In this document: one piece after another, positions 24,624 through 53,366 of the stretch | How positions within the stretch are numbered: the first letter of the stretch is position 1 | Layout of the letters: the number at the start of each line of letters is the position of its first letter | Virus record (IMG/VR): IMGVR_UViG_3300025767_001103 | Span: 21,751-85,750 of that record | Source of the DNA: a virus | Strand: one strand, 5' to 3' | Length of the DNA stretch: 64,000 bases | Notes under the pieces: generated by a model | Seen by the model: only the letters and a program-made list of their open reading frames with translations | Databases searched by the model: none | What the model was told of the DNA's origin: nothing | Made by a program: the position numbers and the translations under genes

Positions 24624-24641
24624 AATAATTAAGGAAAGAAC

Positions 24642-26957: not shown

Positions 26958-26959
26958 AA

Positions 26960-27991: not shown

Positions 27992-27994
27992 AAA

Positions 27995-30460: not shown

Positions 30461-30465
30461 AAACT

Positions 30466-38286: not shown

Positions 38287-38959
38287 TATCTATTCCCCAT
38301 TGACGTTCCTTGCACCAAAAACATTCTCCACATTCTGGCACATGTTGTCCTGGTATATATGTAGTATAATCCAAACCTTCAAACTCTCCTTCGCAACTAC
38401 GAGTAAGATTTAATAAGTCTACGATATCGTTTTCGTAGTACTGCCGTATGATCCAATCCTTTTTAGTATACACGAAAGGATGACAAATGTCAATCCCGTT
38501 ATGTACAAAATGAGGGGCCAACACACCTTCGTTACGTTCTTCCATTTCTCCAGGTATAGATATATCAGGATTCATATTTACACCACCGTATAATGCATCT
38601 AAGTTATATTGATGTGCAATATATTCATTATGTGAACGTAATATAATCCTATTACCTGATTTCATTTTACCATACTCGTCTTTAATAAGGTAATCAGTAG
38701 GCTCTTCTAATTCTGGCGGGACTAAATTTTTATGTACTGTAAAATTATTGTCAAACTTATTCTCAAGCCAGTCAATTACTCCATCAACAACAGGACCTTG
38801 CCATGGTCTTGTTTTCCACATACGTATTTGATTAGTAATATGTATATCTGTAGTTGTACTTACGTTTTTACATATCAAATAAGCAAGTAACGCACTATCG
38901 GCTCCGCCACTAAGACTAATGCCTATGCGTTTCCAAGTTTGGTCCAAATAAAGATTCAT
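38279..38959 (-). CDS. PP-loop ATPase, QueC/ExsB-like
   Basis: A 226-residue protein. The pyrophosphatase loop SGGADS is at residues 17-22. C189, C210, C213 and C216 (SC...ECGECFWC) near the end match the four-Cys zinc site of QueC, 7-cyano-7-deazaguanine synthase, in number and order, although the interval between the first and second Cys is longer. Length fits QueC (about 220-230). QueD, QueE and GCH-type partners are not visible in the window, so it could instead be an adenylating enzyme for the neighbouring radical SAM proteins. It heads the minus-strand operon, with no clear ribosome site. Confidence 0.6.
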   Translation of the reverse strand: MNLYLDQTWKRIGISLSGGADSALLAYLICKNVSTTTDIHITNQIRMWKTRPWQGPVVDGVIDWLENKFDNNFTVHKNLVPPELEEPTDYLIKDEYGKMKSGNRIILRSHNEYIAHQYNLDALYGGVNMNPDISIPGEMEERNEGVLAPHFVHNGIDICHPFVYTKKDWIIRQYYENDIVDLLNLTRSCEGEFEGLDYTTYIPGQHVPECGECFWCKERQWGIDNV

Positions 38960-38984
38960 GCAAATACTTATATACTAAATATCT

Positions 38985-38990
38985 TATAAT
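38985..38990 (+). promoter_or_regulatory. -10 element TATAAT inside a 14-bp palindrome in a divergent gap
   Basis: TATAAT lies in the 54-base gap between the PP-loop gene (minus) and the AspH-like gene (plus). It overlaps the perfect palindrome ATAATACGTATTAT at 38986-38999. No good -35 is visible. The palindrome may be an operator or simply AT-rich sequence. Confidence 0.4.
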
Positions 38991-39013
38991 ACGTATTATT
39001 GGCAGGATTTACT

Positions 39014-39673
39014 ATGCTTCAAACATTACCTTATACAGTTGATTCAACACTTCTTAATAAAGCACAGTGTTCTATTCCGTCTGTAGATTCTAAACTAACA
39101 ATCAACCAACCAACGGGTAATTTTTTTTACAACCCGTGGAAGATTAAAGAAGAATTTAAAGGCACTGTTTGGGAAACTCTTTTAAATACGTTGCCCTTGG
39201 ATATAGGCGAAGCAAGAATCATTGTACTCGGTCACGGAACAACTTATATGTCGCATACTGATATTGATGACAGATATCATCTAAGTATTAAAGGACAATA
39301 TTCTTTTTTAATTAATGTAGACGATGAAAAAATGTACCCTACAGTAGCAGACGGCCAGTGGTATGAAATGAATACCGGACTACGCCATGTAGCAGCAAAT
39401 TTTGGATCTTACGATCGTGCTCAGCTTGTTATAAGAAAACTTTTGAATAATGCTAATTTAAAAAATTATACAAATATAACAATTAAACCAGTATGTGAAA
39501 ATCCTAGATTTGAATTTGATGACTTAATTAGTCCTTGGTTAAATAAAATAAACAAACAGCACTTAATTAATAATTTTAGTATTTTGCAAGACGGCGTTAC
39601 ATTTAATTTAGACACTAATGCCATACATGAATTAGATAATATTGATATTGATAAATTTAAGGTAATAAAATAA
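39014..39673 (+). CDS. Aspartyl/asparaginyl-hydroxylase-like oxygenase
   Basis: A 219-residue protein from ATG 39014, preceded by AGGAT; a TTG at 38999 has no ribosome site. H81-x-D83 (SHTDIDDRYHL), H125 (RHVAANFG) and R136 (DRAQLVI) follow the Fe(II)/2-oxoglutarate cupin order of the AspH family, with the typical DRYH...I...G core. The C-terminal ~70 residues are an extra segment without motifs. Its stop overlaps the ATG of the B12-type radical SAM gene (TAATG), so the two are probably a functional pair. Confidence 0.7.
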   Translation: MLQTLPYTVDSTLLNKAQCSIPSVDSKLTINQPTGNFFYNPWKIKEEFKGTVWETLLNTLPLDIGEARIIVLGHGTTYMSHTDIDDRYHLSIKGQYSFLINVDDEKMYPTVADGQWYEMNTGLRHVAANFGSYDRAQLVIRKLLNNANLKNYTNITIKPVCENPRFEFDDLISPWLNKINKQHLINNFSILQDGVTFNLDTNAIHELDNIDIDKFKVIK

Positions 39674-41220
39674 TGCACCATGTACTTTTCTTTTCGTTAA
39701 CAGGAAAAAGATGGGAACGAGCACTTTGGCCACACCGTGTAGCTACATTTTTAAGAATGAATGAATGGGATGCCGAGGTAGTAGACTTTACAGCATTTTG
39801 GGAATTAGAAGAACTACAAGAGTTTGTGCGCAGTAGAACTACAAGTAAGACTGTTATGTTTTGTTTCGGCACTGCTTTCTTAAATCCTTGGAGCCCTTAC
39901 TTAAATGATTTTATTGCTTGGTTAAAAAATGAATATCCTGATATTCCAGTAGTAGTTGGTGGCAACAATGCTTTAACCACTCCTGCTGATAATGTAGATT
40001 ATTGGGTAGACAGTTACGGAGAAAATGCCATCCTTGCATTGTGTAAACATTTAATAGGCACATTAGGATCTCCTCTAAGAACCGATCCTACTTTTATGGG
40101 AAGCAAAAATGTTCTCAGAGGATTGCACCATTATCCATCGACACCACTAGACAATTATCTTGTAGACTATGAAACACGAGACTTTATAATGCCGTATGAA
40201 TGCCCTCAAATTGAAACTGCTCGTGGATGTATGTTTGAATGTAGCTACTGTAATTTTCCTCTGTTAGGACAATCTAAAGATGTCAGTGTAAGTAAAGAAG
40301 AATTCAAACGACAGATGCAGACTGGGTACGAGAAGTGGGGCATTAAGAATTGGCGTGTAATGGACGAAACTTTTAATGATCGTCCTTCAAAATTACAAAA
40401 GTATGCTGACGCAGTAGACGAACTAGGATACAATCCTTGGATCTGCGGCTTTGCCCGCGGGGACTTAGTTGTTAAACATAAAGAGCACTGGGACACTTAT
40501 ATTAGATTAGGGTTCCTAGGACATAGTATGGGACTCGAAACTTTTAACAGAGAAGCAGGCAAACTTGTGCGTAAAGGTATGGATCCGACACAAATACAAG
40601 AAGGATTATTAGAGTTTCAAGAATATACAGATATTCATGCTCCTAAGAGATATAGAGCAAACATACAATTAATATGCGGTATACCAGGAGAAACACACGA
40701 GTCTTGGCATAGTTCATTAAATTGGTTAAACACTAAATGGAATAGACAAAGTGCTAGCGCCCACATTTTAGAAATTGGCGATTATGATGAAAGCCTTACA
40801 AACCAAAGCCGATTTACTAAACAACTTAAAGACAACGGCTTGTTGAAAATTGAGGCTAAACAAAATCCAGGGTATGACGTCTATAAAGATGCTAACGGAA
40901 ATGTTGTCTTTAAGTCTACTACTCCACGAGGCGGTGGGGTAGGCAGCACTCGCAATGACATTGTTATATGGAAACATAATACTATGGATTGGTACCAAGC
41001 GCAGAATTTAGTAAAAGAATTTTATTCAGATGATGGATTTATTGGACTTCGAGGGTGCAATCCGTTTTTATCAGATAGATTATTTGTGCTAACAGAAGCA
41101 GAACGATATGAAGATATTTACGATATAAACATGTCACAGACAGATACTAACGATCCTAAGTTTAAAACTTTTGTGAAAAATTACATCGATAAAAAATTAA
41201 ATCATACACTTAGTAATTAA
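39673..41220 (+). CDS. Radical SAM protein with N-terminal B12-binding-like domain
   Basis: A 515-residue protein. Residues 1-135 form a Rossmann-like domain (VLFFSLTG, AEVVDFTAF, IPVVVGGNNAL, YGENAILAL) like cobalamin-binding domains, but the DxHxxG motif for base-off cobalamin is not seen. The radical SAM motif is C186-C190-C193 (CMFECSYC) after ETARGC. LICGIPGETHESW is the typical downstream loop of this family. Such enzymes methylate unactivated carbons or perform ring rearrangements. The last ~130 residues are unique. It ends in a 4-nt stop overlap with the opposing gene. Confidence 0.75.
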   Translation: MHHVLFFSLTGKRWERALWPHRVATFLRMNEWDAEVVDFTAFWELEELQEFVRSRTTSKTVMFCFGTAFLNPWSPYLNDFIAWLKNEYPDIPVVVGGNNALTTPADNVDYWVDSYGENAILALCKHLIGTLGSPLRTDPTFMGSKNVLRGLHHYPSTPLDNYLVDYETRDFIMPYECPQIETARGCMFECSYCNFPLLGQSKDVSVSKEEFKRQMQTGYEKWGIKNWRVMDETFNDRPSKLQKYADAVDELGYNPWICGFARGDLVVKHKEHWDTYIRLGFLGHSMGLETFNREAGKLVRKGMDPTQIQEGLLEFQEYTDIHAPKRYRANIQLICGIPGETHESWHSSLNWLNTKWNRQSASAHILEIGDYDESLTNQSRFTKQLKDNGLLKIEAKQNPGYDVYKDANGNVVFKSTTPRGGGVGSTRNDIVIWKHNTMDWYQAQNLVKEFYSDDGFIGLRGCNPFLSDRLFVLTEAERYEDIYDINMSQTDTNDPKFKTFVKNYIDKKLNHTLSN

Positions 41221-41804
41221 TATCCAATTATGTGAAACATAAACTTTGGAGTCATACCTGCATTAATACCACTGTGCCACTCGTTATGATTATTCCAACG
41301 AAATATTGATCCTTGAATACAGTTATACAAATAATCTTCCCCTAGCATAAAAATATGTCCGGGAGTTTTATCTCCCATCATAATACTGTAGCGTTTGATT
41401 TCACCATGCTTTAAATATTCTTGTTCATTATCATCAACATCCCAATGCCAAGGAGCATAGTATCCAGGATCAACTCTGCTAATCCAAGCGCGGTGAACAC
41501 CTTTTAATCGTAAATAAAATGCAACATCATCGACAAACTCCTGTGAGAACTCTTTTCCAGGATAGTAGTTTGTCCACTTCATGGCAGAAGAATTAAAATT
41601 AGCTTCCTTCCAAATAGAATGAATTTTTCCATAATTGCTATTATCTAAGTTCCAGCGACTAGGGTCAGTAGTAACATCTGAGCCTTGTTTGTCTGTTAAT
41701 GATTCGATTAATTCTTTTAAATTCATGCGTCTATATGCATTTAGAAACGCACAACTTTTTAAAGTTAGTAATCTTCTGTCGTAGGCTGCACCAGGATTGT
41801 GCAT
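41217..41804 (-). CDS. Small cupin/2-oxoglutarate oxygenase-like protein
   Basis: A 195-residue protein. H120-x-D122 (PWHWDVDD) and H177 (EWHSGINAG) form the metal triad; K187 sits where the Arg usually is (TPKFMFHI). The segment KRYSIMMGDKTPGHIFML is shared with 43117 and 43638 (RY.M.L.D..PGH.F), so these three form one family. It starts at an ATG overlapping the upstream stop by 1 nt. The substrate is unknown. Confidence 0.6.
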   Translation of the reverse strand: MHNPGAAYDRRLLTLKSCAFLNAYRRMNLKELIESLTDKQGSDVTTDPSRWNLDNSNYGKIHSIWKEANFNSSAMKWTNYYPGKEFSQEFVDDVAFYLRLKGVHRAWISRVDPGYYAPWHWDVDDNEQEYLKHGEIKRYSIMMGDKTPGHIFMLGEDYLYNCIQGSIFRWNNHNEWHSGINAGMTPKFMFHIIGY

Positions 41805-42403
41805 TATATGATTCCTATCATGTCTAATACTTCTTGCTTATATTCTGTTAGAACACTAATAATTATTATAGTTATTTCTTCTTGACTATTGTTTTGAAAT
41901 TCAGCAGGATATTTTGTTGTATCTAATAAGTATACGTTGCCTTCTTCTAGTACAACGGTTTGAATTTTTTCTTGATGACTAATTAGACAAACATCTTGAT
42001 TAACTATAATAGGAATTATAATGCTAACATGCGCCGGGGTAAAAGCTTGCCACTTTCCTAATTTTTGATTAGGCGGATAATTAAATAAAAATGACCGAAA
42101 CGGCTGTTTTAATAAATCCTTTAATCTCTTAAAGAATCCAAATACCATTGGAGTATCTTTAAAATATTCGGGGCCTTCGTCGTGCGGGTCTAAATCAGGG
42201 TGATACGGAAATGTAGGATCGTTGTATATTGTTTGTAGTCCCCAGCCATTAACACTATGGATTGTATTTTTAGCATCAATAAATGTCGGGTGATTATGAT
42301 GTTTCAAATAATCCCAGTGCAAATAATTAAAGTCTGTTTTTAATATATTAAAATATTCAACAGCGTCATCTATATTATATTTCAAATTTAACTTATGTAT
42401 CAT
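41804..42403 (-). CDS. Degenerate AspH-like cupin protein
   Basis: A 199-residue protein if started at ATG 42403. Two further in-frame ATGs lie upstream at 42409 and 42424, but a TATAAT on the minus strand at 42433-42428 would place the transcript start around 42421, favouring the later starts. The motif order GKWQAFTPAHVSIIIPI, NQDVCLISHQ and LEEGNVYLLDT is that of AspH-type cupins, but the distal His is missing (AEFQNNS where HxxxNxS is usual). It may be inactive or bind a ligand only. Confidence 0.5.
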   Translation of the reverse strand: MIHKLNLKYNIDDAVEYFNILKTDFNYLHWDYLKHHNHPTFIDAKNTIHSVNGWGLQTIYNDPTFPYHPDLDPHDEGPEYFKDTPMVFGFFKRLKDLLKQPFRSFLFNYPPNQKLGKWQAFTPAHVSIIIPIIVNQDVCLISHQEKIQTVVLEEGNVYLLDTTKYPAEFQNNSQEEITIIIISVLTEYKQEVLDMIGII

Positions 42404-42442
42404 AAACATACTTATCGACAGCATAAAATTATAAGTATAGTA

Positions 42443-43120
42443 ATGAACACAACTAATTGGAATTATTATTACAAAAGAACAGCTGATGATGTAACAGCAT
42501 CATCTAATATGTTATACACAGCCTTAATGAATCCTACTAAAGATATTTTATGTAAGCATTATTGTATTAATGAGGATTATCAAGGCGTGCAACCTGGCAT
42601 GACGCAAGAGATAATTGACTTCTTTTTTGAAAGAGAAGTAAGGTTTTTACAAGAGCTACAACATTTAGATTGTACTCCTAAACTCTTAGAAGTAGATCGT
42701 GCTAATAATAAAGTTTTTATAGAATGGAACACAGAAACACTAGCGCAGATAGTATTTGACCCAAACAGATCAATAGATGATGAATTTCCTAATTGGAAAG
42801 ATCGATTGTATAGTGTTGTAAAAGAATTTAAAGATAATGGTTATTATAAACTAGCACTCTATCCGCATTGTTTTTTTATAAACAAATCCGGCGCTTTAAA
42901 AATTATTGACTATTACTCAGTTGTGCCACATGACGATTATTTTATTGAAAGAAAATTAATTGCAGGCATGATTGGAGACCAAGGGTCTTATAGATTTGAT
43001 CAGTCAGAAACTGACGGTGTAATTGATCTTAAAAACTTCTTTAATCTTACAATGAACATACACTTGCCAAAGTGTTGGCCCGACTGTCCATTCCCAGAGT
43101 TTTTTAATAAATTATATTAA
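42443..43120 (+). CDS. Kinase-like protein
   Basis: A 225-residue protein from ATG 42443; the frame is open further upstream (from 42395) but the 47703 homologue begins with the same short N-terminus (MxxxxxxYYWN / YYYK). A conserved Lys in LCKHYC, a Glu in EREVRFLQEL, hinge-like KVFIEWN, and YPHCFFINKSGALKIIDYYS resemble the N-lobe and catalytic loop of aminoglycoside or lipopolysaccharide kinases, but the HxDxxxxN motif is not intact. It may be a pseudokinase. It is paralogous to the gene at 47703. Confidence 0.5.
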   Translation: MNTTNWNYYYKRTADDVTASSNMLYTALMNPTKDILCKHYCINEDYQGVQPGMTQEIIDFFFEREVRFLQELQHLDCTPKLLEVDRANNKVFIEWNTETLAQIVFDPNRSIDDEFPNWKDRLYSVVKEFKDNGYYKLALYPHCFFINKSGALKIIDYYSVVPHDDYFIERKLIAGMIGDQGSYRFDQSETDGVIDLKNFFNLTMNIHLPKCWPDCPFPEFFNKLY

Positions 43121-43641
43121 TCGTGTAATGTAATTTGTAACGTAAGCCTAGGAGTGTATCCAATGTTAGTAGGCCCGTGTATACATTCAGGATCACTCCA
43201 TTCGTATAAATCACCTGCTTTATAGTTAGATAACATTTTATCATCATATGCAAATATGTGTCCAGGCTCCCAGTCTTGTAAGAACATAGTGTATCTTACA
43301 AAATTAGTAAGTTCAGTTAAATGCGGATCGACATGCATTGCTTGAAATTCCCCAGGGTATAGTTTTACAAACCACCAAAACTGATATTTTCTAGTATCTG
43401 GTAAATCAGGATACACAAAGTTGTATCCTTCCATTTCTGGTGATCCTGCGTTAAGCTGATGGAAGAAAAACTTATTATTTGAGTATCCTGGTCTTGCCAT
43501 TTCTCTAAACTTTTCTAACGTTTCATTGCCTGTCCAGCGATCAGGTTGCCATACTGGAGTCTTCTCGCCTTGTTTACTGTTTAACATTTCTATAATGTTA
43601 TTTTCAATAATCCAATCTGCGTAATTACCTATATAATTCAT
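43117..43641 (-). CDS. Small cupin/2-oxoglutarate oxygenase-like protein
   Basis: A 174-residue protein. H103-x-D105 (AMHVDPH), H155 (CIHGPTN) and R165 (TPRLTL) form the complete Fe(II)/2-oxoglutarate set. It shares the N-terminus MxYxGNYADWI and the core RY.M.LQDWEPGH.F with the adjacent gene, a tandem duplication. It is last in a minus-strand operon and meets the kinase-like gene tail to tail with a 4-nt TTAA overlap. Confidence 0.7.
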   Translation of the reverse strand: MNYIGNYADWIIENNIIEMLNSKQGEKTPVWQPDRWTGNETLEKFREMARPGYSNNKFFFHQLNAGSPEMEGYNFVYPDLPDTRKYQFWWFVKLYPGEFQAMHVDPHLTELTNFVRYTMFLQDWEPGHIFAYDDKMLSNYKAGDLYEWSDPECIHGPTNIGYTPRLTLQITLHD

Positions 43642-44135
43642 TGTAGATCATAAGAGCTAAAACATGCAATCATTCTTGTGCTCCATCCTATATTACATGC
43701 ACCGTGTAGTGCCTTACTATCGTCGTAAACAAACAAATCACCTTTTTTGTATCCAGTTGCGAGCTGATCCTCATAGATAAACACATGACCTGGCTCGTAA
43801 TCTTGCAAAGCCATCCAATATCGTTTACTATTTTTTTCTATAAGAGCATGCGGATCTTTATGCATAGGCATTTTGTCGCCCGGATTCATTTTTATAAACC
43901 ACCACAAAAACTCACCATTCAACGGAATAGGCGATTTAACATCAAACGGAAACGTATCGGGCTCGTAAATGTACCAATATGTTTGTGTTAAATCGTATCC
44001 GTGTTCTGCTGCTTTTCTAAATTCTTCACTGTCAGGATTTCTGCCACCTCCAGGTCGACGTGTGCCATCGTTATCTTTTATAAAGTCGATCCACTCTGGT
44101 TGTATCCAGTCTGCGTAATTGCCTAAATATTTCAT
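43638..44135 (-). CDS. Small cupin/2-oxoglutarate oxygenase-like protein, tandem paralogue
   Basis: A 165-residue protein. H92-x-D94 (MPMHKDPH), H144 (ALHGACN) and R154 (STRMIA) are present. The N-terminus KYLGNYADWI and the core RYWMALQDYEPGHVFI mirror the gene at 43117. It overlaps neighbours by 4 nt on each side. The two copies may act on different residues of the same substrate, or one may be a remnant. Confidence 0.7.
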   Translation of the reverse strand: MKYLGNYADWIQPEWIDFIKDNDGTRRPGGGRNPDSEEFRKAAEHGYDLTQTYWYIYEPDTFPFDVKSPIPLNGEFLWWFIKMNPGDKMPMHKDPHALIEKNSKRYWMALQDYEPGHVFIYEDQLATGYKKGDLFVYDDSKALHGACNIGWSTRMIACFSSYDLQ

Positions 44136-44740
44136 ATTAAATCTCGAAATTCCATAAGATCTTCAAAACTAACATTTTTATCCATCATTGTATCTCCACA
44201 CCTAATCACTATTACTATTCTATTCTCGTTCATACTATTTTCAACACCATGATACCAGTCAGCTCTCATTAAAGTAACTTTGTCGACGGTAGTACTTGCA
44301 ATAGGCTGTAATACAATTTCTTCCTTAATAAAATTAATTGTGTATCCATTATAAGGCGGCTTGTCATTCGCACAAAATTTAGACCAAATATATTCTTCTT
44401 TAATATCCTTATGATCATACCAATGCGTTACAGACTCTTCATAATTTTTTATCGGTATAGTAATAACAACTTTTTGATGTAACTCGTTGTTTCCGTCTAA
44501 ATGAATGTTAAAGTTACTCACAGGCGGAACAATTAAAATATTAATATATTGTAAAGGCAGTTTTAATCTCGGAAGTAAAAATCCGCTAAGAATTGGAAAG
44601 TCTTTTATACCTACTGAGTGACAATATTCTGATGTCGCAGACTCGTCAATAACATCATCAGGATATCTGTTAATATATTCTAATAACTCTTTTTGAATTA
44701 ATGGTAGTTCTGGAACATTTAATTTTTGATACATTTTCAT
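44132..44740 (-). CDS. AspH-like Fe(II)/2-oxoglutarate oxygenase
   Basis: A 202-residue protein. H80-x-D82 (NIHLDGNN), H164 (YHGVENS) and R174 (RIVIVIR) follow AspH order, with the typical VVITIPI strand between them. It starts one base after the stop of the gene upstream in the operon. It is soluble, with no signal peptide. Confidence 0.65.
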   Translation of the reverse strand: MKMYQKLNVPELPLIQKELLEYINRYPDDVIDESATSEYCHSVGIKDFPILSGFLLPRLKLPLQYINILIVPPVSNFNIHLDGNNELHQKVVITIPIKNYEESVTHWYDHKDIKEEYIWSKFCANDKPPYNGYTINFIKEEIVLQPIASTTVDKVTLMRADWYHGVENSMNENRIVIVIRCGDTMMDKNVSFEDLMEFRDLI

Positions 44741-44741
44741 A

Positions 44742-45551
44742 TTAATAACTCTCTATATTGTTAATGCCAAGCGTTTTACGAAATTCTTCTGTAAACTTAC
44801 CGTCGATGCGTAATGCATAACTTTGTTCCATAATGCGCTCTCCCCCATGCCAGTCTTGATCATTCCACCAAGCAGCACGAGTATTAAGATATGTTTTGTT
44901 TTTAGTTTCAGGATCCCACAAATAAAATGCTTTCTTAGTATTAGGACGAATATGTATAAATTCGTTTTTGTGCGGAAACGTTTGATTCATTCCGTTTTTA
45001 GCATCAAGGTCCCTGTGTTCAAAAGGAACTCCGTCTGCTTCGCAATGAAAGAATATAACACGCCCGATGTGTTCGAATATGTTATCTTTGATTAACTGTT
45101 CTGTCCACTTTACTATTCCGGGAAAATGTTCTGCTTCTTCTGTTAGTTTACGTTCTGCTGTTCTGTCATTCCATGACCCTTCTTCCCAAAGGAAATAATA
45201 AATGTAAGGATCGTACGCACCTAGTGCCATTTTTAAATAACGTGTAAATTTATTACGCTGTTTATAATCACCAAAGTCTGAAGGCATAAGTTTCATACCT
45301 TCGACTTTAATAGGATTATCATCTGCTAGTGATTGAAATTCTTCTAATGCTTGATAGATAGGTTTCCAATTTAATGTATAACTCATGTCTTCAAAAGTAA
45401 AACCAGGCGCCATCCATGTACCTTCTTTAGCAAACTCTCTTGCCGCCGCAAAGCCATGTATTATTTCTGGTTGTAATTTCTCAAAAGTTTCCATATCTAG
45501 ATACTTTTCCATATCAAAATATGGTTGACTATTAATTCCTTTAATTGCCAT
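44742..45551 (-). CDS. Fe(II)/2-oxoglutarate oxygenase-like protein
   Basis: A 269-residue protein. H179-x-D181 (EHRDLD), H235 (DWHGGE) and R248 (YALRID) form the triad plus Arg. The N-terminal ~160 residues are a helical region without clear relatives. KAFYLWDPETKNK is the beta strand between. It overlaps the radical SAM gene upstream in the operon by 11 nt, strongly suggesting coupled translation with it. Confidence 0.65.
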   Translation of the reverse strand: MAIKGINSQPYFDMEKYLDMETFEKLQPEIIHGFAAAREFAKEGTWMAPGFTFEDMSYTLNWKPIYQALEEFQSLADDNPIKVEGMKLMPSDFGDYKQRNKFTRYLKMALGAYDPYIYYFLWEEGSWNDRTAERKLTEEAEHFPGIVKWTEQLIKDNIFEHIGRVIFFHCEADGVPFEHRDLDAKNGMNQTFPHKNEFIHIRPNTKKAFYLWDPETKNKTYLNTRAAWWNDQDWHGGERIMEQSYALRIDGKFTEEFRKTLGINNIESY

Positions 45552-46596
45552 AATTCTTTATCCATTCTTCAGGTATAGTATCGGGCAGCATTTTTCTTTT
45601 GTTTACTGCATAGTCTCTTAGTATAACTTGATGCACTAACGGACTCGGAGGCTTCCCTGGAAGTATATCAGCAATTGCTTCAGTTTGTACTTCAGATAAG
45701 TCTAATGTTTTAGCATCTGGCCATTGTATAATTTTAACTACAATGTTATTAATAATTAGCGGATAATGAGCTCGGTTGCCGTCGTTATGATCCATTCCGA
45801 GACTCCAGTTATTTTTAGTAGCTATTGCCTTTGTTTCTCTTACTAATTCAGACATATAAATTTGTGGGCCGCCGGGGAATCGTCCGATGTCAGCGCCACA
45901 GCGTACTCTATATTGCTTGCATACATCTAATCCAAATTCTTGTATTTCTTCTAAACAATATTCTAACTGTGTCATGTCTTCTAATGTATAACTGATATTT
46001 TTAATTACTAGTCCTAACTCGGTACAATTTTTAATACCTTCCATCTGCTTTTTGCGCACAGTATGACCTTGATAGTCAGGATGGTTGAGACCAAATGTCC
46101 AGGCAACATTCTTAAAGTCTTTAAACTTTGCAGCATATTTACGATTTGCCATATTAACGCCATTGGTCAAAATCATAATACCACGAGGCTTTCCAGGAAG
46201 TGATTGTATAGCTGTTATTAACTCGGGCAAATCTTTTCTTGTAGTAGGCTCTGCTCCTACTAATGCAACAGGGTATCCGTCATCGGGCCAAGATTTAATT
46301 TTTGCTAATATCGATAAAATTGCTGGATCTATAGACTTGTTATCAGGTTCTTGATAACAATGCGGGCATGCTAGATTGCATTTATTAGTTGTCTCTAGAA
46401 AGTAGCTTCCTAATGCATGTCTTGGATAGTTGTAGTTTAAATAAAACTCTGCATCAGGCTCTACAAGATGTTCAACGTATCCGTGCTCTGGGCATGTCTT
46501 ACTTAACCATATTTGATTATCTTTTTCAAATCTAGTTGCTGGCACATGTTGATAACATTGTTCGCAAATTGATAATGTATCTTTTAGTTTATTCAT
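45541..46596 (-). CDS. Radical SAM protein of the MJ0619/tetraether-synthase-like type (second copy)
   Basis: A 351-residue protein. An N-terminal zinc-like domain (C11, C14, C35: CEQC, VPA, SKTCPEHG) precedes C73-C77-C80 (CNLACPHC). This N-terminal CxxC...KxCPEHG layout is known from the archaeal pterin methylase MJ0619 and tetraether lipid synthase families. The GGEP position reads VGAEPT. It lacks the usual C-terminal extension of those families. It is 4-nt overlapped with its paralogue (46593) and 11 nt with the oxygenase downstream. Substrate unknown. Confidence 0.75.
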   Translation of the reverse strand: MNKLKDTLSICEQCYQHVPATRFEKDNQIWLSKTCPEHGYVEHLVEPDAEFYLNYNYPRHALGSYFLETTNKCNLACPHCYQEPDNKSIDPAILSILAKIKSWPDDGYPVALVGAEPTTRKDLPELITAIQSLPGKPRGIMILTNGVNMANRKYAAKFKDFKNVAWTFGLNHPDYQGHTVRKKQMEGIKNCTELGLVIKNISYTLEDMTQLEYCLEEIQEFGLDVCKQYRVRCGADIGRFPGGPQIYMSELVRETKAIATKNNWSLGMDHNDGNRAHYPLIINNIVVKIIQWPDAKTLDLSEVQTEAIADILPGKPPSPLVHQVILRDYAVNKRKMLPDTIPEEWIKNYGN

Positions 46597-47639
46597 CGAT
46601 ATTTCTCTGGCAATGTATCAAACAACGATTTTCTTTCATTGACTGCTCTATCTCTTAATATAACTTGATGCAATAGTGGACTTTTTGGTTTTCCTGGAAC
46701 TACAGTTGCCCAAGACTCGGAATAGATTTCTTCAAAGTCTATTGTTTTAACATCTACCCATTTAATAAATCTATGTGTAATTCCGTTTATTCTTACCAAA
46801 TAATGTGTACGATTTCCGTTTTTTTCATCTACTTCCCACGACCAACCTTTTTCATTACATACACGTTCTGCTGTTTTGACTAGCTCTGATAAGTAATGTT
46901 CTGGTTCATCTTCGTCTGGAGTGCGTCCAATTTCAACGCCTAGCTGTATTCTTGCATCGCTGCATACTCCCTTATGATGCCATTCTTGAATTTCTTCTAG
47001 AACATCATCTAGCTGATCCATAGTACCTAATGTGTAAGTAAAATTCTTAATAGTAAGCCCTAGCTCAATACAGTTGTCTATGCCTATTTGCTGTTTTTTT
47101 CTAATAACACCACCGTTATAATCTGGATGGTTAAGACCAATGGTCCATGTTAACCCTTCTATGCCTACAAATTTTTCTGCATATGCACGTTTGCCTAAAT
47201 TTATTCCGTTAGTAACAACCATTAGCCATCGTGGAACTTCAGTTAACGATTGTATTTCTTTTACTATGTCTGATAAGTCTTTTCGTGTAGTTGGTTCTGC
47301 TCCTACTAATGCTAATGCCATATCATCAGGTAACTCTTTAGTTTGTTTAATAATGGACGAAACTGTAGGATCTATTGACAAATTGTCTGGCATTTGATAA
47401 CAATGGGGACAATCTAAGTTACATCGATTAGTTATCTCAAACCAGAAAGTATTAGGTAATCTACGTTCATATTTGAAATTAAGATAAAACTCTGCGTCTA
47501 CTTCTACCAAACACTCGTGATAGCCGTGCTCAGGACATGTTTTACTTAACCATATCTGGTTGTCTCTTTCAAATCGTACTGCCGGTACATGTCGATAACA
47601 GTGTTCACACATTGATAATGTATCTTGTAGTTTTTTCAT
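46593..47639 (-). CDS. Radical SAM protein of the MJ0619/tetraether-synthase-like type (first copy)
   Basis: A 348-residue protein, paralogous to 45541 along its length: C11, C14, C35 (CEHC, VPAVRFERD, SKTCPEHG) and C73-C77-C80 (CNLDCPHC), followed by ALVGAEPTTRKDL. The two have diverged in the C-terminal third. It is first in the minus-strand operon, with a TATAAT on the minus strand at 47662-47657. Tandem copies suggest two steps or two positions on one substrate. Confidence 0.75.
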   Translation of the reverse strand: MKKLQDTLSMCEHCYRHVPAVRFERDNQIWLSKTCPEHGYHECLVEVDAEFYLNFKYERRLPNTFWFEITNRCNLDCPHCYQMPDNLSIDPTVSSIIKQTKELPDDMALALVGAEPTTRKDLSDIVKEIQSLTEVPRWLMVVTNGINLGKRAYAEKFVGIEGLTWTIGLNHPDYNGGVIRKKQQIGIDNCIELGLTIKNFTYTLGTMDQLDDVLEEIQEWHHKGVCSDARIQLGVEIGRTPDEDEPEHYLSELVKTAERVCNEKGWSWEVDEKNGNRTHYLVRINGITHRFIKWVDVKTIDFEEIYSESWATVVPGKPKSPLLHQVILRDRAVNERKSLFDTLPEKYR

Positions 47640-47676
47640 TGAGCACTCACATTTTAATTATATACTCATATTTACC

Positions 47677-47684
47677 TATAAATA
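47677..47684 (+). promoter_or_regulatory. T4 late promoter box, exact TATAAATA
   Basis: TATAAATA is the exact T4 late consensus. It lies 19 bases before ATG 47703 in a divergent 63-base gap, with GAGG between. It is the clearest late-type promoter inside the accessory cassette. Confidence 0.6.
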
Positions 47685-47702
47685 ATATTGAGGAACAACG
47701 TT

Positions 47703-48389
47703 ATGGACTATGAATATTATTGGAACAATGTGCCAGGATCTGGGTTGTGTAGAAATAACTTAATCTACACTAGTTTAGTAAATGCACAACAAACTGAATT
47801 TGTACAATGGTATTATAATGATCAAGGATATCACAAAGGACAAAATCAAGTAGTCGATCCTGCACTAATGGAATCAAAATGGCTGCGCGAAGTTAAGTAT
47901 ATTACACAAATGAGCGAACAATATCCTGAATTAGTTCCTATAATAAAAACTATTAACCACACTGAAAGAAAATTACATTTAGAAATAGAAGGTCCTGATT
48001 TTTGGGAACTTGCAAAATGCGACCAAGCAAACTACGATAGTGTATTACCTAACTGGCAAGAACAGATGCTAGACATAATTCAAGCGCACAAGAGTCTAGG
48101 CATTTACAAATACAGTATGCATCCTAGCAGTTATTTTGTAGTAAATGGAAAGCTTAAAAGCATTAACTATTTTTTTGCGTATAATGAAGAAGAAGGTCCT
48201 ATTAGCATAGCAGACCATTCTAGTCATATATACAGCACACGGCAAGAAGAAATGCGTAAACACATTGAATCGTTAGGCATTGACTGGCATGCACCGCAGC
48301 CTTTAAATTTATTAGAACAATTATGTTGGGAGAGTTTTAGAAAGAACTTTCCTAATGATTTTATAGAGAAAGCTAAATGTATAAAATAA
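47703..48389 (+). CDS. Kinase-like protein, paralogue of 42443
   Basis: A 228-residue protein from ATG 47703 (GAGGA 10-14 bases upstream; the in-frame ATG at 47688 overlaps that site). MDYEYYWNNVPGSG aligns with the N-terminus of 42443, and KWLREVKYITQ, LHLEIEGPDFW and YKYSMHPSSYFVVNGKLKSINYF match its N-lobe Glu and catalytic-loop region. The HxD/DFG residues of active kinases are not intact. Likely a pseudokinase or divergent small-molecule kinase. Confidence 0.5.
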   Translation: MDYEYYWNNVPGSGLCRNNLIYTSLVNAQQTEFVQWYYNDQGYHKGQNQVVDPALMESKWLREVKYITQMSEQYPELVPIIKTINHTERKLHLEIEGPDFWELAKCDQANYDSVLPNWQEQMLDIIQAHKSLGIYKYSMHPSSYFVVNGKLKSINYFFAYNEEEGPISIADHSSHIYSTRQEEMRKHIESLGIDWHAPQPLNLLEQLCWESFRKNFPNDFIEKAKCIK

Positions 48390-48931
48390 TTCCTTGGAGT
48401 GAAGACTTAGAATTATCTGAATTTTATGAAGGTGCTGCTGCCCGTGGGTTTGAAAATAATGCATCGCAGCATATGCTTGTAGATTGTTTTCGTAAAGAAG
48501 CTAACTGGCAAACTTGGATATTATACTATAATAATGAAGCTGTAGGCAGTGTAGCAGCACATACATTTGACGATGTAATGGGCCCTAATACATTTAGAGT
48601 TGCTGCTAGAACATGTGTGTTTACAGACAAGTTACCTTTAGTTAGTTTAAGGACACGCAATCAGATTGTTACACATCAACATGCAACTGGACAATTTTTA
48701 ATTCCTGCTTGTTTAGAATGGCTTCCCAAAGGAGCTAGAGCATTTATAACTTCTAACGAAAATGAAGCAGGTACCCAAAAAATAGTACACAGAGTATTTG
48801 CTCCTGCTATGGAAAAGACAGGGCAAATGAAACATATAAAAGATGTGTTTTATAGAGGCACTAATCAAACAGTGTGGGAAATTTTTCCAGACAAGTTTTT
48901 TGAAGAATTAAATAAACATCCTAGATGGTAA
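48377..48931 (+). CDS. GNAT-like acetyltransferase-like protein
   Basis: A 184-residue protein. The order helix-strand (IIPWSEDLELSEFYEGAA), then a beta hairpin (WILYYNNEAVGSVAAHTFDD) and a later VFTDKL strand fits an N-acetyltransferase fold, but the R/Q-x-x-G-x-G/A loop is not clear. It ends in PDKFFEELNKHPRW, which is nearly the same as the end of the next, unrelated protein. It overlaps the kinase-like gene by 13 nt. Confidence 0.45.
   Translation: MYKIIPWSEDLELSEFYEGAAARGFENNASQHMLVDCFRKEANWQTWILYYNNEAVGSVAAHTFDDVMGPNTFRVAARTCVFTDKLPLVSLRTRNQIVTHQHATGQFLIPACLEWLPKGARAFITSNENEAGTQKIVHRVFAPAMEKTGQMKHIKDVFYRGTNQTVWEIFPDKFFEELNKHPRW
48887..48931 (+). repeat. 45-bp direct repeat, copy A (3' end of 48377 gene)
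   Basis: It matches copy B at 49674-49718 at 39 of 45 positions, in the same reading frame and ending at the stop codon. All six differences are transitions. The repeat encodes PDKFFEEL-x-K-x-x-R. Confidence 0.85.
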
Positions 48932-48944
48932 AGTGAGGTAAGTT

Positions 48945-49715
48945 GTGCAAGAAAGTGCAGAAGAATTTTTAAAACATTTAAAGAAAGATTTACATCAGCA
49001 TATAGATGCTTTTAAAGAAAAAACTCGATCTTTTAAAATAGGTCATATAGAGGATATTGATAAGTTTTTTGACGAATACTTAGGTAAACTATTTGACAGT
49101 AAAACTGATCAAAGAATTTTTGATTCTATTAAAACTTTACGGTTTCTTGAACCGCATCATGTAGATGGCTGCAAAGCAATTCTTGACCGTATGAGTTTAC
49201 TAGAACAAATGCCAAAAAATGCTGTAGTAGCAGAGATAGGTGTTGATAGAGGTCGGTTTGCAGAACGTATATACGAGGTTACACAGCCACAAAAGTTACA
49301 TCTCATTGATATTTTTCAATACGATTATCAACTAAAATCAGTAGACAGCATATTTGATCAAAAAGAAAACATAGAAATACATCAAGTAGACTCCGCAGAA
49401 GCAGGAAATTTGTTTAATGACGAGTATTTTGATTGGGTGTATATAGATACTACTCACACATATGAAAGAACCAAAGCAGAACTAAATTCATTTGCAGATA
49501 AAATAAAACCAGGCGGATTCATCTCAGGTCATGACTACTTTCAGGTTGGCGTATCAAATGGGTTTTCATACGGTGTAATGAGTGCAGTACACGAATTTGT
49601 AGTGATCAATAACTGGAAACTATATGCTGTTACGCTGGAACCTTTAGAAAACCAAAGTTTTGTTATACAAAAACCAGATAAGTTTTTTGAAGAATTAAGT
49701 AAATATTCTAGGTAG
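48945..49715 (+). CDS. Class I SAM methyltransferase (Methyltransf_24-like)
   Basis: A 256-residue protein with a GTG start and AGTGAGG upstream. Motif I is VVAEIGVDRGRFAERI, and DWVYIDTTHTYERTKAEL...IKPGGFISGHDY is the signature of class I methyltransferases related to Methyltransf_24, often found in polysaccharide or antibiotic pathways. The first ~70 residues are helical and precede the core. It ends in PDKFFEELSKYSR, the same tail as the preceding gene. Confidence 0.75.
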   Translation: MQESAEEFLKHLKKDLHQHIDAFKEKTRSFKIGHIEDIDKFFDEYLGKLFDSKTDQRIFDSIKTLRFLEPHHVDGCKAILDRMSLLEQMPKNAVVAEIGVDRGRFAERIYEVTQPQKLHLIDIFQYDYQLKSVDSIFDQKENIEIHQVDSAEAGNLFNDEYFDWVYIDTTHTYERTKAELNSFADKIKPGGFISGHDYFQVGVSNGFSYGVMSAVHEFVVINNWKLYAVTLEPLENQSFVIQKPDKFFEELSKYSR

Positions 49716-49718
49716 TAA
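49674..49718 (+). repeat. 45-bp direct repeat, copy B (3' end of 48945 gene)
   Basis: Copy B of the repeat described for 48887-48931. The 787-bp interval between repeat starts contains exactly the methyltransferase gene. Confidence 0.85.
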
Positions 49719-49722
49719 TAAT

Positions 49723-51147
49723 ATGGTGATTAAGTATAACAATATAGAAAACCGTAAGATTGTTTTTTGTATATTAGATAATTTAAACGAATGTGACAAT
49801 TTAATAGCTAAAGATATGTCTATTAATACAATGGATTTTTTAATCCGGACAATGGTAACACAGAAATATGATATATTAATAAGTTCTAACGAATCTGATT
49901 TGTTAACAGAAGCAGTTAAAATAAATAATTACACACATGCTGTTGTTGTAGCAACTGGCACTTATTCCCCTTTTGGTAATAGATTCTTTGATGAAATTGA
50001 AACCTTGTGTAATCAAGATTTTTTTATTGCGGGACATATACTAGATAGACAAGATTCTTATTTAGAACTACACAAACAGTTTTATATAATAAATTTAGAT
50101 GATTATAAAAACTTAAATTGTCCTATTATAGAAGAAGGTAACTGGTTTTTAGAAGATTTGCACGAAGAATTCTGCCCTATTGTATCTAAGTACGGCGACG
50201 ACATTAATAAAATTATTCAGAGTGTAACTATCGGTACTAAAAAGAAAACATATAAATCTAAACTACACGGTTATAATATTCTTAAATTAGCATTAGAGAA
50301 TAATAAAAAACTTATTGATGTTGGTCAAGGACTACGCTCTTCTAAACATTATTTGTATCATGAGTACGATCATGTCTTTATTAATGCATATCCTAAAATT
50401 TTTCATCAACAATTATTTGCTAGAAATGTAGTTGCACCTTGGAATACAGATACCGTTTACGACAAAATCGAATTCAGCGGTCCTGTTGAACAATATGTTA
50501 CAATAGGTACTGGATTAAATTGGATTAGAAACCTAACACTTATTGGTTACACGTCTAATACTGAAGTTGTTTTTACTGATATTAATCATAACTGTTTAAG
50601 ATTTATGAAAGAATTGGTTGAAAACTGGGATGGTATCGACTACGATAAATTTTATCATTCATTTGAATACTTTTATCCTAGTGGAGTACCTGAACACGTT
50701 TTCAAAAATTTATCAGCTAAATGTGAATTTGATGAATTTAAGAATTTTTTTGATAATTGGAACGATACATGGAATACAATTAAAAAATTAAAATTTAGTT
50801 ATCGTCTAATAGACTACACTTCTGAATACGATTTGTCGTGGATTGACCCAACTAAGAGTACATTAATGAACTTTAGTGATTTATTTAATTACGCAGCATT
50901 AACTCCCTTACAAAGTGTTAAATTTAAGATAGGTGCTGAAAATAGACTAATTCACAATCTATCTAAAATTAATCCGGATATTACAGTAATAATTACGTCT
51001 AGGGCTGCCGAAGGATTTAAAGAGTTTAATAGCAATACAATAAGCAAAGTTAAAGATTTAGAATTAACAACTCTTGAAGAATTGAAGAAATTGCCGTGGC
51101 ACGAACACGATTGGAATAAGGTAGGAAGAAGTCACCTTGGACTCTAA
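49723..51147 (+). CDS. Two-domain protein, methyltransferase-like C-terminal half
   Basis: A 474-residue protein. The first ~130 residues (SINTMDFLIRTM, HAVVVATGTYSPFGN, DFFIAGHILDR) look like a Rossmann-type sugar-transferase-like fold. The second half has YVTIGTGLNWIRNL, EVVFTDINHNCLRFM and NFSDLFNYAALTPLQ, resembling a class I methyltransferase core (glycine strand, acidic strand end, N-F/D-x-F loop). No known family is certain. It ends with a CTAA stop overlap against the opposite gene. Confidence 0.45.
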   Translation: MVIKYNNIENRKIVFCILDNLNECDNLIAKDMSINTMDFLIRTMVTQKYDILISSNESDLLTEAVKINNYTHAVVVATGTYSPFGNRFFDEIETLCNQDFFIAGHILDRQDSYLELHKQFYIINLDDYKNLNCPIIEEGNWFLEDLHEEFCPIVSKYGDDINKIIQSVTIGTKKKTYKSKLHGYNILKLALENNKKLIDVGQGLRSSKHYLYHEYDHVFINAYPKIFHQQLFARNVVAPWNTDTVYDKIEFSGPVEQYVTIGTGLNWIRNLTLIGYTSNTEVVFTDINHNCLRFMKELVENWDGIDYDKFYHSFEYFYPSGVPEHVFKNLSAKCEFDEFKNFFDNWNDTWNTIKKLKFSYRLIDYTSEYDLSWIDPTKSTLMNFSDLFNYAALTPLQSVKFKIGAENRLIHNLSKINPDITVIITSRAAEGFKEFNSNTISKVKDLELTTLEELKKLPWHEHDWNKVGRSHLGL

Positions 51148-51788
51148 GGCATAGCATCTATTTTTATAAATTTGCCATCGACATTTTGTTTTTTGGCTGC
51201 GTCTAATATTAATTCTTTCCATCCAGGTAATGAATCGTTTCTTGATGCAATAATAAAATACCTATCTTCGTTGCTATTATTCCATAAACCGTGATAATAA
51301 TGAATATTCATAGCATATGCATGCCCTGGCATCATATCTAAGTTAGGGCTACCATCTTGCCATCGCCATTCAAACCCTTCTGGACTATTTAATACAAATG
51401 AAGTATTATCAATAATAGGACCTTTACTGTCATTATGAAAATTAATATATCCCCCTGCTTCTAGTAACATAAATCGAACTCTACTATATTGTTCGCACGG
51501 AAAAGTGTTTATAAAATAATCCTTAGTAACAGGTGCCGAATTTGAAGCATCAGTCCAACTCATTATTTTGTATGCTTCTTTATGATCAGTAATTCCGTAT
51601 TGATCCCACGATCCGGTTTTATTTTCGTCTAATCCGTGTAGCACTAATCCGTACCAGCCTTCACTGTCACCGTCTCGATGTTTAGTAAATTTATGTCTAA
51701 GATTCTTTGCTTCTTCTAACATTTCGTTGTACGGAAACACCACATCTAAATCTAAGTATTTGGCTTCGGATATAAAATATTCTCTCAT
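51144..51788 (-). CDS. AspH-like Fe(II)/2-oxoglutarate oxygenase
   Basis: A 214-residue protein. H118-x-D120 (NFHNDS), H166 (YYHGLWNNS) and R176 (DRYFIIASR) follow AspH/cupin order, with NTSFVLN between. It overlaps the upstream TauD-like gene by 4 nt. It is last of a three-gene minus-strand operon. Confidence 0.65.
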   Translation of the reverse strand: MREYFISEAKYLDLDVVFPYNEMLEEAKNLRHKFTKHRDGDSEGWYGLVLHGLDENKTGSWDQYGITDHKEAYKIMSWTDASNSAPVTKDYFINTFPCEQYSRVRFMLLEAGGYINFHNDSKGPIIDNTSFVLNSPEGFEWRWQDGSPNLDMMPGHAYAMNIHYYHGLWNNSNEDRYFIIASRNDSLPGWKELILDAAKKQNVDGKFIKIDAMP

Positions 51789-52576
51789 TTATCTCTCTCA
51801 TAATCAAACGTAGCACGATGCACACGGCGAGTATTCATTGATTCGAAATGTAATCTTTTGTGTACACCCAACCATTGGTCACTTAATGAAACATCACCAG
51901 TTTTCCATTCAAGTATGTGGCAATACTTATCTTGTGTAACAAAGTCAAACAATGGTTCAGCAATTTCTAAACTCTGATTTCTAGTCATACCTTCAAATCT
52001 TTCAAATTGATGCAAGCTTAAAAATAATCCTGTTTCACCTATGTGATTAGTGTACACAAGTGGAAATGGTACATCATCGTATATTGTTCTATTTTTAAAA
52101 TTTTCTTGTGTACGTTCTACGCTATGATTAACATTACCAAATGTAATAACTTTTAAGTCTTTGATACGATCTTTTGTATCGCTGTCTAAGTCCTTGTATG
52201 CTTCTATAGTATTATTCCAAACAGTTGTACTACCTTCAACTCCTTGTTCTCCATATAACCAAGCAACTCCTGAGCCCGGCCTTGCATGTGGACTTTCGTT
52301 ATGCCATAGCATTTCTTCTTTGTGTCCTGCTATACTATTTTCTGTTACAAGACCTATGTAACCTTCTTTGTCTAATGCACTACGGTCAAATCCTGGAGTG
52401 TTAGGTTTGAATAACACGTATGGATTAGGAAACATTTTTACAATTTCTGCTTCTCTTTCTACAGATAGGTTCTGATTTCTTATAGTAATAGCAGTATGTT
52501 TTGCACATAACCTAATGAGATTTTTAATTTCTTGTGCAGTAGTAATATTTAAATCGATATCTTCAATTATTAGCAT
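51785..52576 (-). CDS. TauD/TfdA-like dioxygenase
   Basis: A 263-residue protein. It begins with the typical HTAITIRNQNLSVE region. The metal site is H92-x-E94 (LWHNESPH) rather than H-x-D, as in clavaminate synthase-type enzymes. The distal His is H239 (GVHKRLHF) and the Arg is R250 or R251 (NTRRVHR). Length is near the family norm (about 270-300). It overlaps the acyltransferase gene upstream by 14 nt. Substrate unknown. Confidence 0.7.
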   Translation of the reverse strand: MLIIEDIDLNITTAQEIKNLIRLCAKHTAITIRNQNLSVEREAEIVKMFPNPYVLFKPNTPGFDRSALDKEGYIGLVTENSIAGHKEEMLWHNESPHARPGSGVAWLYGEQGVEGSTTVWNNTIEAYKDLDSDTKDRIKDLKVITFGNVNHSVERTQENFKNRTIYDDVPFPLVYTNHIGETGLFLSLHQFERFEGMTRNQSLEIAEPLFDFVTQDKYCHILEWKTGDVSLSDQWLGVHKRLHFESMNTRRVHRATFDYERDK

Positions 52577-53327
52577 TACTATATCCTAATGTTTGTATAT
52601 TGTCCCACTTACTGTCGTCTAAGTTATTAAACTCGTCAGCGAATCTAAAAACATTATCAACAGGAAGTGTTTTTAATATATCTAATCGAGCGTTCCACCA
52701 TTTTGTTTTTAACAGCATTTCTTTTACATTGTCAGGAAATCTATCTCTAATAACTTTATTCACGCCGCCTACAATAGTATAAGGTTCTACGTCTTTGGTA
52801 ATAATAGCATTAGCGGCAACGACAGAACCATTGCCTATTGTTACGCCAGGCATAACAATAATGCCATCACCTAGATATACATCATTGCCTATTACAACAG
52901 GACGAGAATTCATTTCTTTTACATCTGTTTGATCTCTACTAATATTTAACATGACAAGCTCTTCGTCTGTATAGTCACCTTGTTTGGCCATTATAGTGTC
53001 TGGGTTAATGCTAACTCCTGAAAAATTGTGCATGCCAGCAGCAATAGTACAGCGGTATCCTACACCACTATGTCTGCCCATAAACACATTGCATCTCATA
53101 TATCCATTTGCACGTATACTAGAATATGCTCCTAGAAAAATCTTATTAGGCGCATCTTGAAAACTAGGAATATTATTCATTATTCCTTTTTCAAAAAGTA
53201 TGCCTTTGAGATATTCTGTATCTGTGTATCTTATGTTATGCTCATTTAAGTGCATATGGCTGCTTAATAAGGTATCTGCAGAAAGTGTACCGGTTAAAAA
53301 ATATTCTAACTTTGTTTCGATATTCAT
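52563..53327 (-). CDS. Hexapeptide-repeat acyltransferase (CatB/XAT-like)
   Basis: A 254-residue protein. Left-handed beta-helix hexapeptides run from about residue 70 to 195: CNVFMGRHSGVGYRCTI, VVIGNDVYLGDGIIV, VTIGNGSVVAANAI. A catalytic His is seen in AAGMHNFSG. The C-terminal PYTIVGGVNKVIRDRF and KTKWWN are the standard CatB-like ending. Substrates in this family are often sugars or antibiotics. A TATAAATA-like box (53333-53340) lies only 5 bases before the ATG. Confidence 0.75.
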   Translation of the reverse strand: MNIETKLEYFLTGTLSADTLLSSHMHLNEHNIRYTDTEYLKGILFEKGIMNNIPSFQDAPNKIFLGAYSSIRANGYMRCNVFMGRHSGVGYRCTIAAGMHNFSGVSINPDTIMAKQGDYTDEELVMLNISRDQTDVKEMNSRPVVIGNDVYLGDGIIVMPGVTIGNGSVVAANAIITKDVEPYTIVGGVNKVIRDRFPDNVKEMLLKTKWWNARLDILKTLPVDNVFRFADEFNNLDDSKWDNIQTLGYSNANN

Positions 53328-53366
53328 AAAGATATTTATAGAAAATATTACTTGATAAATATTAAT

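Follow-up and report, generated by a model that had tools for sequence, protein, structure and literature searches.

The last 64,000 bases (positions 21,751 to 85,750; the window) of the 85,750-base uncultured-virus record IMGVR_UViG_3300025767_001103 from IMG/VR contain a compact, linked unit of radical S-adenosylmethionine (SAM) enzymes and 2-oxoglutarate (2OG)-type oxygenases, which is carried by a large uncultured T4-like phage. The unit consists of one to three radical-SAM paralogues, a core oxygenase and a second oxygenase tracking the radical-SAM genes. The radical SAM is obligately linked to the core oxygenase, and there is strong evidence that the radical-SAM enzymes and the oxygenases work together. 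In the window, it is represented by six open reading frames on the minus strand (43117-47639), two for radical-SAM enzymes (A and B) and four for predicted oxygenases. A first-pass annotation made from the sequence alone had described them as a nearly continuously overlapping operon for stepwise carbon methylation or coupling plus hydroxylation. We confirmed all six reading frames, and four of the five junctions indeed overlap: counted from the first gene, the first two junctions overlap by 4 and 11 nt, the third has a gap of 1 nt (44741), and the last two overlap by 4 nt each. Pairwise dN/dS values of the module genes against their relatives range from 0.02 to 0.28, showing that they are under purifying selection.

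Linkage and composition of the module

Searching IMG/VR with a profile of the radical-SAM enzymes yielded 59 loci after the removal of duplicates. The gene for the core oxygenase (44742-45551) lies beside or near the radical-SAM gene in 58 of them, while the contig of the 59th ends inside the radical-SAM pair. Conversely, of 81 non-redundant contexts collected with the core oxygenase, 31 had a gene of this radical-SAM family directly upstream in the same orientation. Other genes were counted in 61 loci with enough flanking sequence, 35 with and 26 without a radical SAM. The oxygenase encoded at 43117-43641 was present in all 35 loci with a radical SAM compared to 4 of the 26 without, and a TauD-type oxygenase in 24 compared to 2. 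Because the loci are related, the association of 43117-43641 with the radical SAM was retested with thinning and a stricter threshold for the identity of relatives, resulting in p values from 4e-11 (97% clustering, 65 loci) to 6e-4 (80%, 24 loci); under the stricter threshold, two to six loci have a radical SAM but not this tracking oxygenase. The possibility raised in the first-pass annotation that each gene is common without the others is true only of the core oxygenase, which has no radical SAM nearby in 26 of the 61 loci, and false for the radical-SAM genes.

A fixed six-gene operon had to be rejected, as the exact order was found in only two other contigs and the oxygenase encoded at 44132-44740 is accessory (5 of the 35 radical-SAM loci). 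Because of the linkage counts, the rarity of the exact order and the frequent tandem copies of radical-SAM and oxygenase genes at related loci, the operon in the window represents just one form of a module whose core is obligate and whose further steps are optional. We also rejected a ribosomally synthesized and post-translationally modified peptide (RiPP) with an adjacent small precursor, since the genes are packed with near-zero intergenic space and a gene for a small precursor peptide was not seen there.

Enzymes A and B are paralogues (57% identical), and both exceed the curated cut-offs of PF23545 (Zn_ribbon_HMPTM) and PF04055 (Radical_SAM). Each contains the pattern C-X2-C-X20-C-X2-H, a rubredoxin-like iron motif, and a single CX3CX2C motif; C11, C14, C35 and H38 as well as C73/C77/C80 are invariant (alignment A1, 38 homologues). 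A Foldseek search with the AlphaFold model of enzyme B (pLDDT 93) gave the archaeal GDGT-MAS as top match (7tol; E 1e-18, TMq 0.64), followed by SkfB (4e-8), with the peptide maturases SkfB, SuiB and EpeE among the structural neighbours. In a profile search, GDGT-MAS was likewise the best solved relative of the pair (E 1e-32). The assignment of the first two genes to radical SAMs with an N-terminal domain of the MJ0619/Tes type is thus upheld, whereas the label of MJ0619 as a pterin methylase is obsolete: MJ0619 is GDGT-MAS, the methylase assignment was not reproducible, and the class D radical-SAM methylases "no longer exist" (PMC9433317, PMC9692996).

The rubredoxin-like iron ligands of GDGT-MAS, C9-X2-C12-X20-C33-X2-H36 (PMC9433317), form the same pattern as in the phage pair, which also shares the CX3CX2C core of GDGT-MAS/Tes (7TOL, 7TOM). 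GDGT-MAS contains two further [4Fe-4S] clusters, one of them with a role in its C-C coupling, whose mechanism involves a bond between a substrate carbon and a sulfur of an Fe-S cluster (PMC9433317). Its N-terminal auxiliary cluster (ligated by its C73/C77/C80 plus a His between the rubredoxin and radical-SAM domains) is absent from the phage pair: there is no Cys from C35 (C43 in one of the proteins) to C73 in A or B, and only one CX3CX2C is conserved. A conserved Cys set for the C-terminal auxiliary cluster is missing as well, with no Cys after C80 conserved in at least 90% of the 38 homologues and the last Cys at position 233 or 261 of about 350. The phage enzymes are about 150 residues shorter than GDGT-MAS (351 vs. 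about 500), and the C-terminal region completing the lipid pocket is mostly absent. They reach 75 bits with the Tes model NF045702 (cut-off 450); their best NCBIfam score, 77-79 bits, is with the TrsS radical SAM (seleno)protein family (NF045646, cut-off 490), whose profile was matched only in parts. Because both auxiliary [4Fe-4S] sites are absent and the score is far under the cut-off, A and B, as judged from their sequences, share ancestry and two of the four metal sites with Tes, yet are not Tes. Unlike in GDGT-MAS, an oxygenase partner is obligate. Methylation or Tes-type C-C coupling by A and B is unlikely because required elements are missing. We rejected Tes-type coupling for the absence of both auxiliary clusters, and a methylase role because the family behind it has been withdrawn and Pfam/NCBIfam searches of A and B gave no match to a cobalamin-binding domain. 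Of the stepwise pathway claimed initially, the cooperation of radical SAMs and oxygenases is therefore supported by linkage, but the methylation or coupling is not.

All four downstream genes code for an HxD...H iron triad with a downstream Arg, and the conservation of these residues in 10 to 81 relatives shows that the motif is not a chance occurrence. The proteins are accordingly predicted to be 2OG-Fe(II)-type oxygenases catalyzing 2OG-dependent hydroxylation, and at the level of the conserved ligands, a lack of iron binding appears excluded. The core oxygenase is the best conserved of them (67-81% identity over most of its family), and its H179xD181, H235 and R248 are invariant also in a 45-sequence set. 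Its AlphaFold model (pLDDT 92) adopts a double-stranded beta-helix fold, and the Foldseek matches, with E values of about 1e-4, were with few exceptions 2OG oxygenases, including the protein hydroxylases PHD2 and P4H with EF-Tu. Because the TM values are only 0.3-0.37, we assign the modelled protein to a distant 2OG oxygenase family. Compared to 2OG-Fe(II) oxygenases such as L-proline cis-4-hydroxylase, PHD2 and AlkB, with which the fold and the HxD...H...R residues are shared, the phage proteins represent separate virus-borne families, three of the four being without a Pfam family and none of them with a Pfam match over the cut-off. The oxygenases at 43117-43641 and 43638-44135 are paralogues of one family (alignment A6), and searching solved structures with this pair gave only a marginal match to a nucleoside-antibiotic beta-hydroxylase (E 0.8). 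The protein at 43638-44135 shows a weak Asp/Asn-hydroxylase/LpxO signal (PF05118, E 0.0047; LpxO model, E 8e-4, far under the cut-off).

The radical-SAM family is known only from uncultured viruses, because neither the phage-record nor the prokaryote-species scan gave a close match. No match to A, B, the core oxygenase or the tracking oxygenase was obtained in 50,697 GenBank phage records, and a pattern-based scan of 84,980 prokaryote species, in which a cellular source could be overlooked if unsequenced or very divergent, detected no close radical-SAM relative. An origin in a sequenced species of bacteria or archaea was rejected: the matches of the scan covered only parts of the radical-SAM core at 23-40% identity, and the best of those inspected lacked the rubredoxin motif. 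No close relative is known from cultured phages; other sets of radical-SAM genes occur in Campylobacter phages CP220/CPt10 and Vibrio phage K566. The latter was rejected as a cultured homologue: its SPASM-type radical SAMs are related to other island members rather than to this family, and no match to the core oxygenase was found. Several of these K566 genes lie near a gene for PagP, which is involved in lipid A acylation (L284, GenBank, 145587-178756).

Phage context and enzyme island

The left flank of the record contains genes for a T4-type late sigma factor, a baseplate hub/lysozyme and baseplate wedge proteins, one of which is nearest to those of T4-like jumbo phages, e.g., Agrobacterium phage Atu_ph07 (36% identity). 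A gp23 capsid gene is present in 4 of 15 long relatives, all 15 of which contain 8-15 radical-SAM matches. These sigma factor, baseplate and capsid genes support the assignment to a T4-like phage. The six genes are a small portion of an island of about 36 kb that extends from around 20.5 to around 56.5 kb in the window, between tail-fibre-type genes (Table 1); this island had been overlooked in the first-pass annotation. It is flanked by a 2823-aa structural protein (37-8508), and no PHROG match was found for the gene at 14644-16615. The host recognition cluster of T4-like phages is delimited by VrlC and gp14; the 2823-aa protein was not matched to VrlC by name, and gp14 was not detected up to the end of the contig.

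Table 1. Positions in the window of the module genes, their neighbours and the surrounding island
Feature	Position	Strand	Basis or remark
Radical-SAM enzyme A, 348 aa	46593..47639	-	PF23545 E 1.6e-15; PF04055 E 1.3e-9
Radical-SAM enzyme B, 351 aa	45541..46596	-	PF23545 E 7.2e-16; PF04055 E 1.7e-11
Predicted core 2OG-Fe(II)-type oxygenase, 269 aa	44742..45551	-	H179/D181/H235/R248 in 100% of 81
Predicted accessory oxygenase, 202 aa	44132..44740	-	H80/D82/H164/R174 in 10/10
Predicted oxygenase, 165 aa	43638..44135	-	H92/D94/H144 in 100%, R154 in 92% of 39
Predicted oxygenase tracking the radical SAM, 174 aa	43117..43641	-	H103/D105/H155/R165 in 100% of 58
Predicted pseudokinase-like protein	47688..48389	+	Divergent neighbour of module; profile matches protein kinases, E 3e-6
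Second kinase-fold protein	42395..43120	+	Aligned with 47688-48389; convergent with last oxygenase
Cobalamin-type radical-SAM protein (PhpK/HpnR-like)	39673..41220	+	TIGR04479 E 8.6e-15, below cut-off; PF04055 E 5e-13
Flavin-dependent tryptophan-halogenase family protein	54384..55898	+	PF04820 E 4e-83; island member
Whole enzyme island	20568..56542		11 radical-SAM proteins, 11 2OG-type oxygenases, flavin halogenase, methyltransferases, acyltransferases, AMP-ligase fragment, epimerase
Genes for virion structural proteins and tail fibres	37..16615	+	PHROG head/tail/tail-fibre matches; one side of island
Tail-fibre-like protein	56611..57864	-	Weak PHROG matches; other side of island; family common at related loci

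The module is bordered by two paralogous kinase-fold proteins, which are predicted to be pseudokinases because the Asp and Asn of the catalytic loop are replaced (e.g., YKYSMHPSSYF). The gene at 47688-48389 lies at most 9 kb from the core oxygenase in all 61 loci and is often adjacent, whereas that at 42395-43120 occurs in 34 of the 35 loci with a radical SAM and 11 of the 26 without.

The island also codes for a GDP-mannose dehydratase/epimerase (24642-25643), and islands of relatives add glycosyltransferase, FkbM methyltransferase, carbamoyltransferase, DegT aminotransferase, class III aminotransferase and fatty-acid desaturase genes. Two of the island proteins (20568-21956 and 28918-30435) score well over the cut-off of the twitch-domain radical-SAM family NF033640 (E about 1e-92), which is without an assigned function. 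The protein at 38279-38959 is a QueC-like PP-loop ATPase (E 4.5e-4, just under the cut-off) with a C-terminal Cys-rich motif and is conserved at related loci, while a search of solved structures with the neighbour protein 49723-51147 gave no match. In an oxygenase position, the gene at 41804-42424 codes for a protein retaining only a conserved Trp and Asn and no conserved HxD, possibly a degenerate or repurposed relative. Oxygenase genes have been repeatedly tandem-duplicated in these islands, and one relative contains four TauD-type oxygenases in tandem (L012:3441-7000), each just 34-42% identical to the copy of the window. Another related viral island codes for a StrB/HsvA/SxtG-like amidinotransferase (L052:14299-15369). 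Our own reading of a relative's protein (L108:12015-12872) as a PLP decarboxylase was dropped, as no support for it was found.

Proposed pathway and candidate substrates

We propose, with a probability of about 45%, that the radical SAMs and oxygenases of the module form the core of a pathway for C-H tailoring in several steps, which acts on a surface component and alters receptor recognition. The analysis directly shows the gene content, the conserved metal ligands, the folds of two of the proteins, purifying selection, the obligate linkage and the location in the island; the reaction types, their order, the substrate and the purpose are what we infer. In the first step, cleavage of SAM at the only [4Fe-4S] cluster of A and B would lead to hydrogen abstraction from a polar substrate and to a dehydrogenated, epimerised or rearranged product, and the rubredoxin-like iron site may serve as a one-electron donor/acceptor relay. 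In the second step, the oxygenases 44742-45551, 43117-43641 and 43638-44135 would hydroxylate the same substrate with O2 and 2OG; 44132-44740 may add an optional extra step. The kinase-fold neighbours, predicted to be catalytically dead, may be scaffolds. Most likely, the substrate would be a molecule of the surface that is produced or changed in the course of infection, such as O-antigen, capsule or another envelope molecule, and its change could lead to altered receptor recognition and the exclusion of competing phages.

We tentatively rank host envelope molecules before virion fibres, and these before a diffusible product, mainly because of the location in a fibre island, the sugar and acyl enzymes in such islands and the precedents from other T4-like phages (PMC7029224, PMC7824862). 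Several points weigh against this proposal. The window contains few glycosyltransferases, no polymerase or flippase was identified in it, and nothing found there is specific for a particular substrate. We are not aware of a radical SAM for which action on O-antigen has been demonstrated biochemically. Moreover, radical-SAM enzymes are oxygen-sensitive, whereas the oxygenases require O2, and a fibre-protein substrate fits the same location equally well.

The strongest alternative, which we consider rather unlikely, is that the enzymes modify the tail fibres or other virion proteins of the phage post-translationally, similar to RiPP maturation on a large adhesin, where epimerised, dehydrogenated, hydroxylated or halogenated side chains would diversify or stabilise the receptor-binding tip. 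The island sits between fibre genes, almost no enzymes building small-molecule backbones are encoded in the window, and there are many relatives of peptide-modifying enzymes (SPASM and N_Twi radical SAMs, Asp/Asn hydroxylase-like proteins). The matches of the core oxygenase to protein hydroxylases and of enzyme B to peptide maturases point in the same direction, but these fold neighbours are generic. On the other hand, neither a leader-binding (RRE-like) domain nor any substrate repeat that could be recognised was identified, and the tailoring families are more varied than expected for one type of fibre.

An antibiotic- or toxin-like or signalling metabolite derived from an amino acid, nucleoside or guanidine appears improbable as the product of the island. 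The halogenase and AMP-ligase fragment, together with the amidinotransferase, class III aminotransferase and carbamoyltransferase of relatives, would suit such a diffusible compound. A halogenated metabolite has been proposed for a cyanophage cluster (PMC7824862), and Campylobacter phages join five radical SAMs with a glycine amidinotransferase (PMC2853527). However, neither a polyketide synthase or non-ribosomal peptide synthetase nor an exporter was identified, only a 215-aa fragment of an AMP ligase is present (55895-56542), and the halogenase is not tied to the radical-SAM module in relatives (0 of 35 loci with the module vs. 6 of 26 without).

We give little credence to a modification or coupling of lipid chains by the radical-SAM pair which, together with LpxO-like hydroxylation, would remodel lipid A or other membrane lipids of the host. 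GDGT-MAS is the best match in structure and sequence, the 165-aa oxygenase weakly matches LpxO, desaturases occur in relatives, and PagP is encoded beside radical SAMs in Vibrio phage K566. However, the pair lacks both auxiliary clusters, while Fe-S bonding is part of the coupling mechanism (PMC9433317), and most of the region completing the lipid pocket. In addition, the invariant residues beyond the motifs (N171, H172, Q184, R230, H277, E302, H322, Q323, R327, D328 and N332) are mostly polar or charged, which disfavours a lipid tunnel. Least probable of all is a modification of nucleic acids or nucleotides (tRNA wobble or DNA hypermodification), despite the QueC-like protein in the island and the combination of a radical SAM with a 2OG hydroxylase in wybutosine synthesis, since the window contains no tRNA gene, no Que or tRNA-guanine transglycosylase set was seen, so many different oxygenases would be unusual, and the genes are located with fibre rather than replication genes.

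Relation to known phage islands and significance

Radical-SAM, oxygenase and halogenase genes in a variable island of T4-like phages are already known, so the claim that such a system had not been described in a phage holds for this radical-SAM family, but not for the islands themselves (PMC7824862, PMC3037559, PMC7029224, PMC2853527). For the "host recognition cluster" of pelagimyophages, the authors propose modification of the O-chain (PMC7029224). Our island resembles this cluster of pelagimyophages and cyanomyophages as a large variable island with tail fibres in the structural region of a T4-like genome, with a gene order varying among relatives; in the part of PMC7029224 available, the radical-SAM/oxygenase module is not described, and radical-SAM genes are absent from the freshwater members. 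In the T4-like Campylobacter phages CP220/CPt10, 11-12 genes code for radical SAMs, and five of these belong to an exchangeable module of 10-12 genes which also includes a glycine amidinotransferase; amidinotransferases are likewise found in relatives of our island. No radical SAM of the present rubredoxin type was matched in any cultured phage, and oxygenase pairing is not reported in the portion of PMC2853527 at hand. T4-like cyanophage clusters likewise combine a halogenase with several 2OG oxygenases, for which capsule decoration or a metabolite was proposed (PMC7824862; 2OG oxygenases and prnA, PMC3037559). In particular, Iyer et al. propose a halogenated amino-acid or sugar metabolite for a halogenase/2OGFeDO/carbamoyltransferase cluster (PMC7824862). 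As described, these clusters are not centred on radical-SAM enzymes, and the halogenase of the window is 28-32% identical to those of cyanophages.

To judge from the literature and databases, this family of radical SAMs has not been described before, and the same is true of its minimal architecture and of the obligate pairing with two oxygenases. In a more specific form, which we regard as rather doubtful, virus-restricted, rubredoxin-coupled single-cluster radical SAMs and 2OG oxygenases acting in obligate series would build a new decoration on phage adhesins or the host surface, giving T4-like phages a C-H functionalisation line in the style of natural-product pathways with which to vary recognition. 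Islands rich in radical-SAM genes have been noted in T4-like phages since 2010, but neither a reaction nor a substrate has been defined for them, and a compact linked unit with a simplified relative of a solved enzyme makes the role of a phage radical SAM directly testable. If the substrate is indeed a tail fibre or host surface glycan, the module would represent a chemical layer of recognition invisible to sequence comparison.

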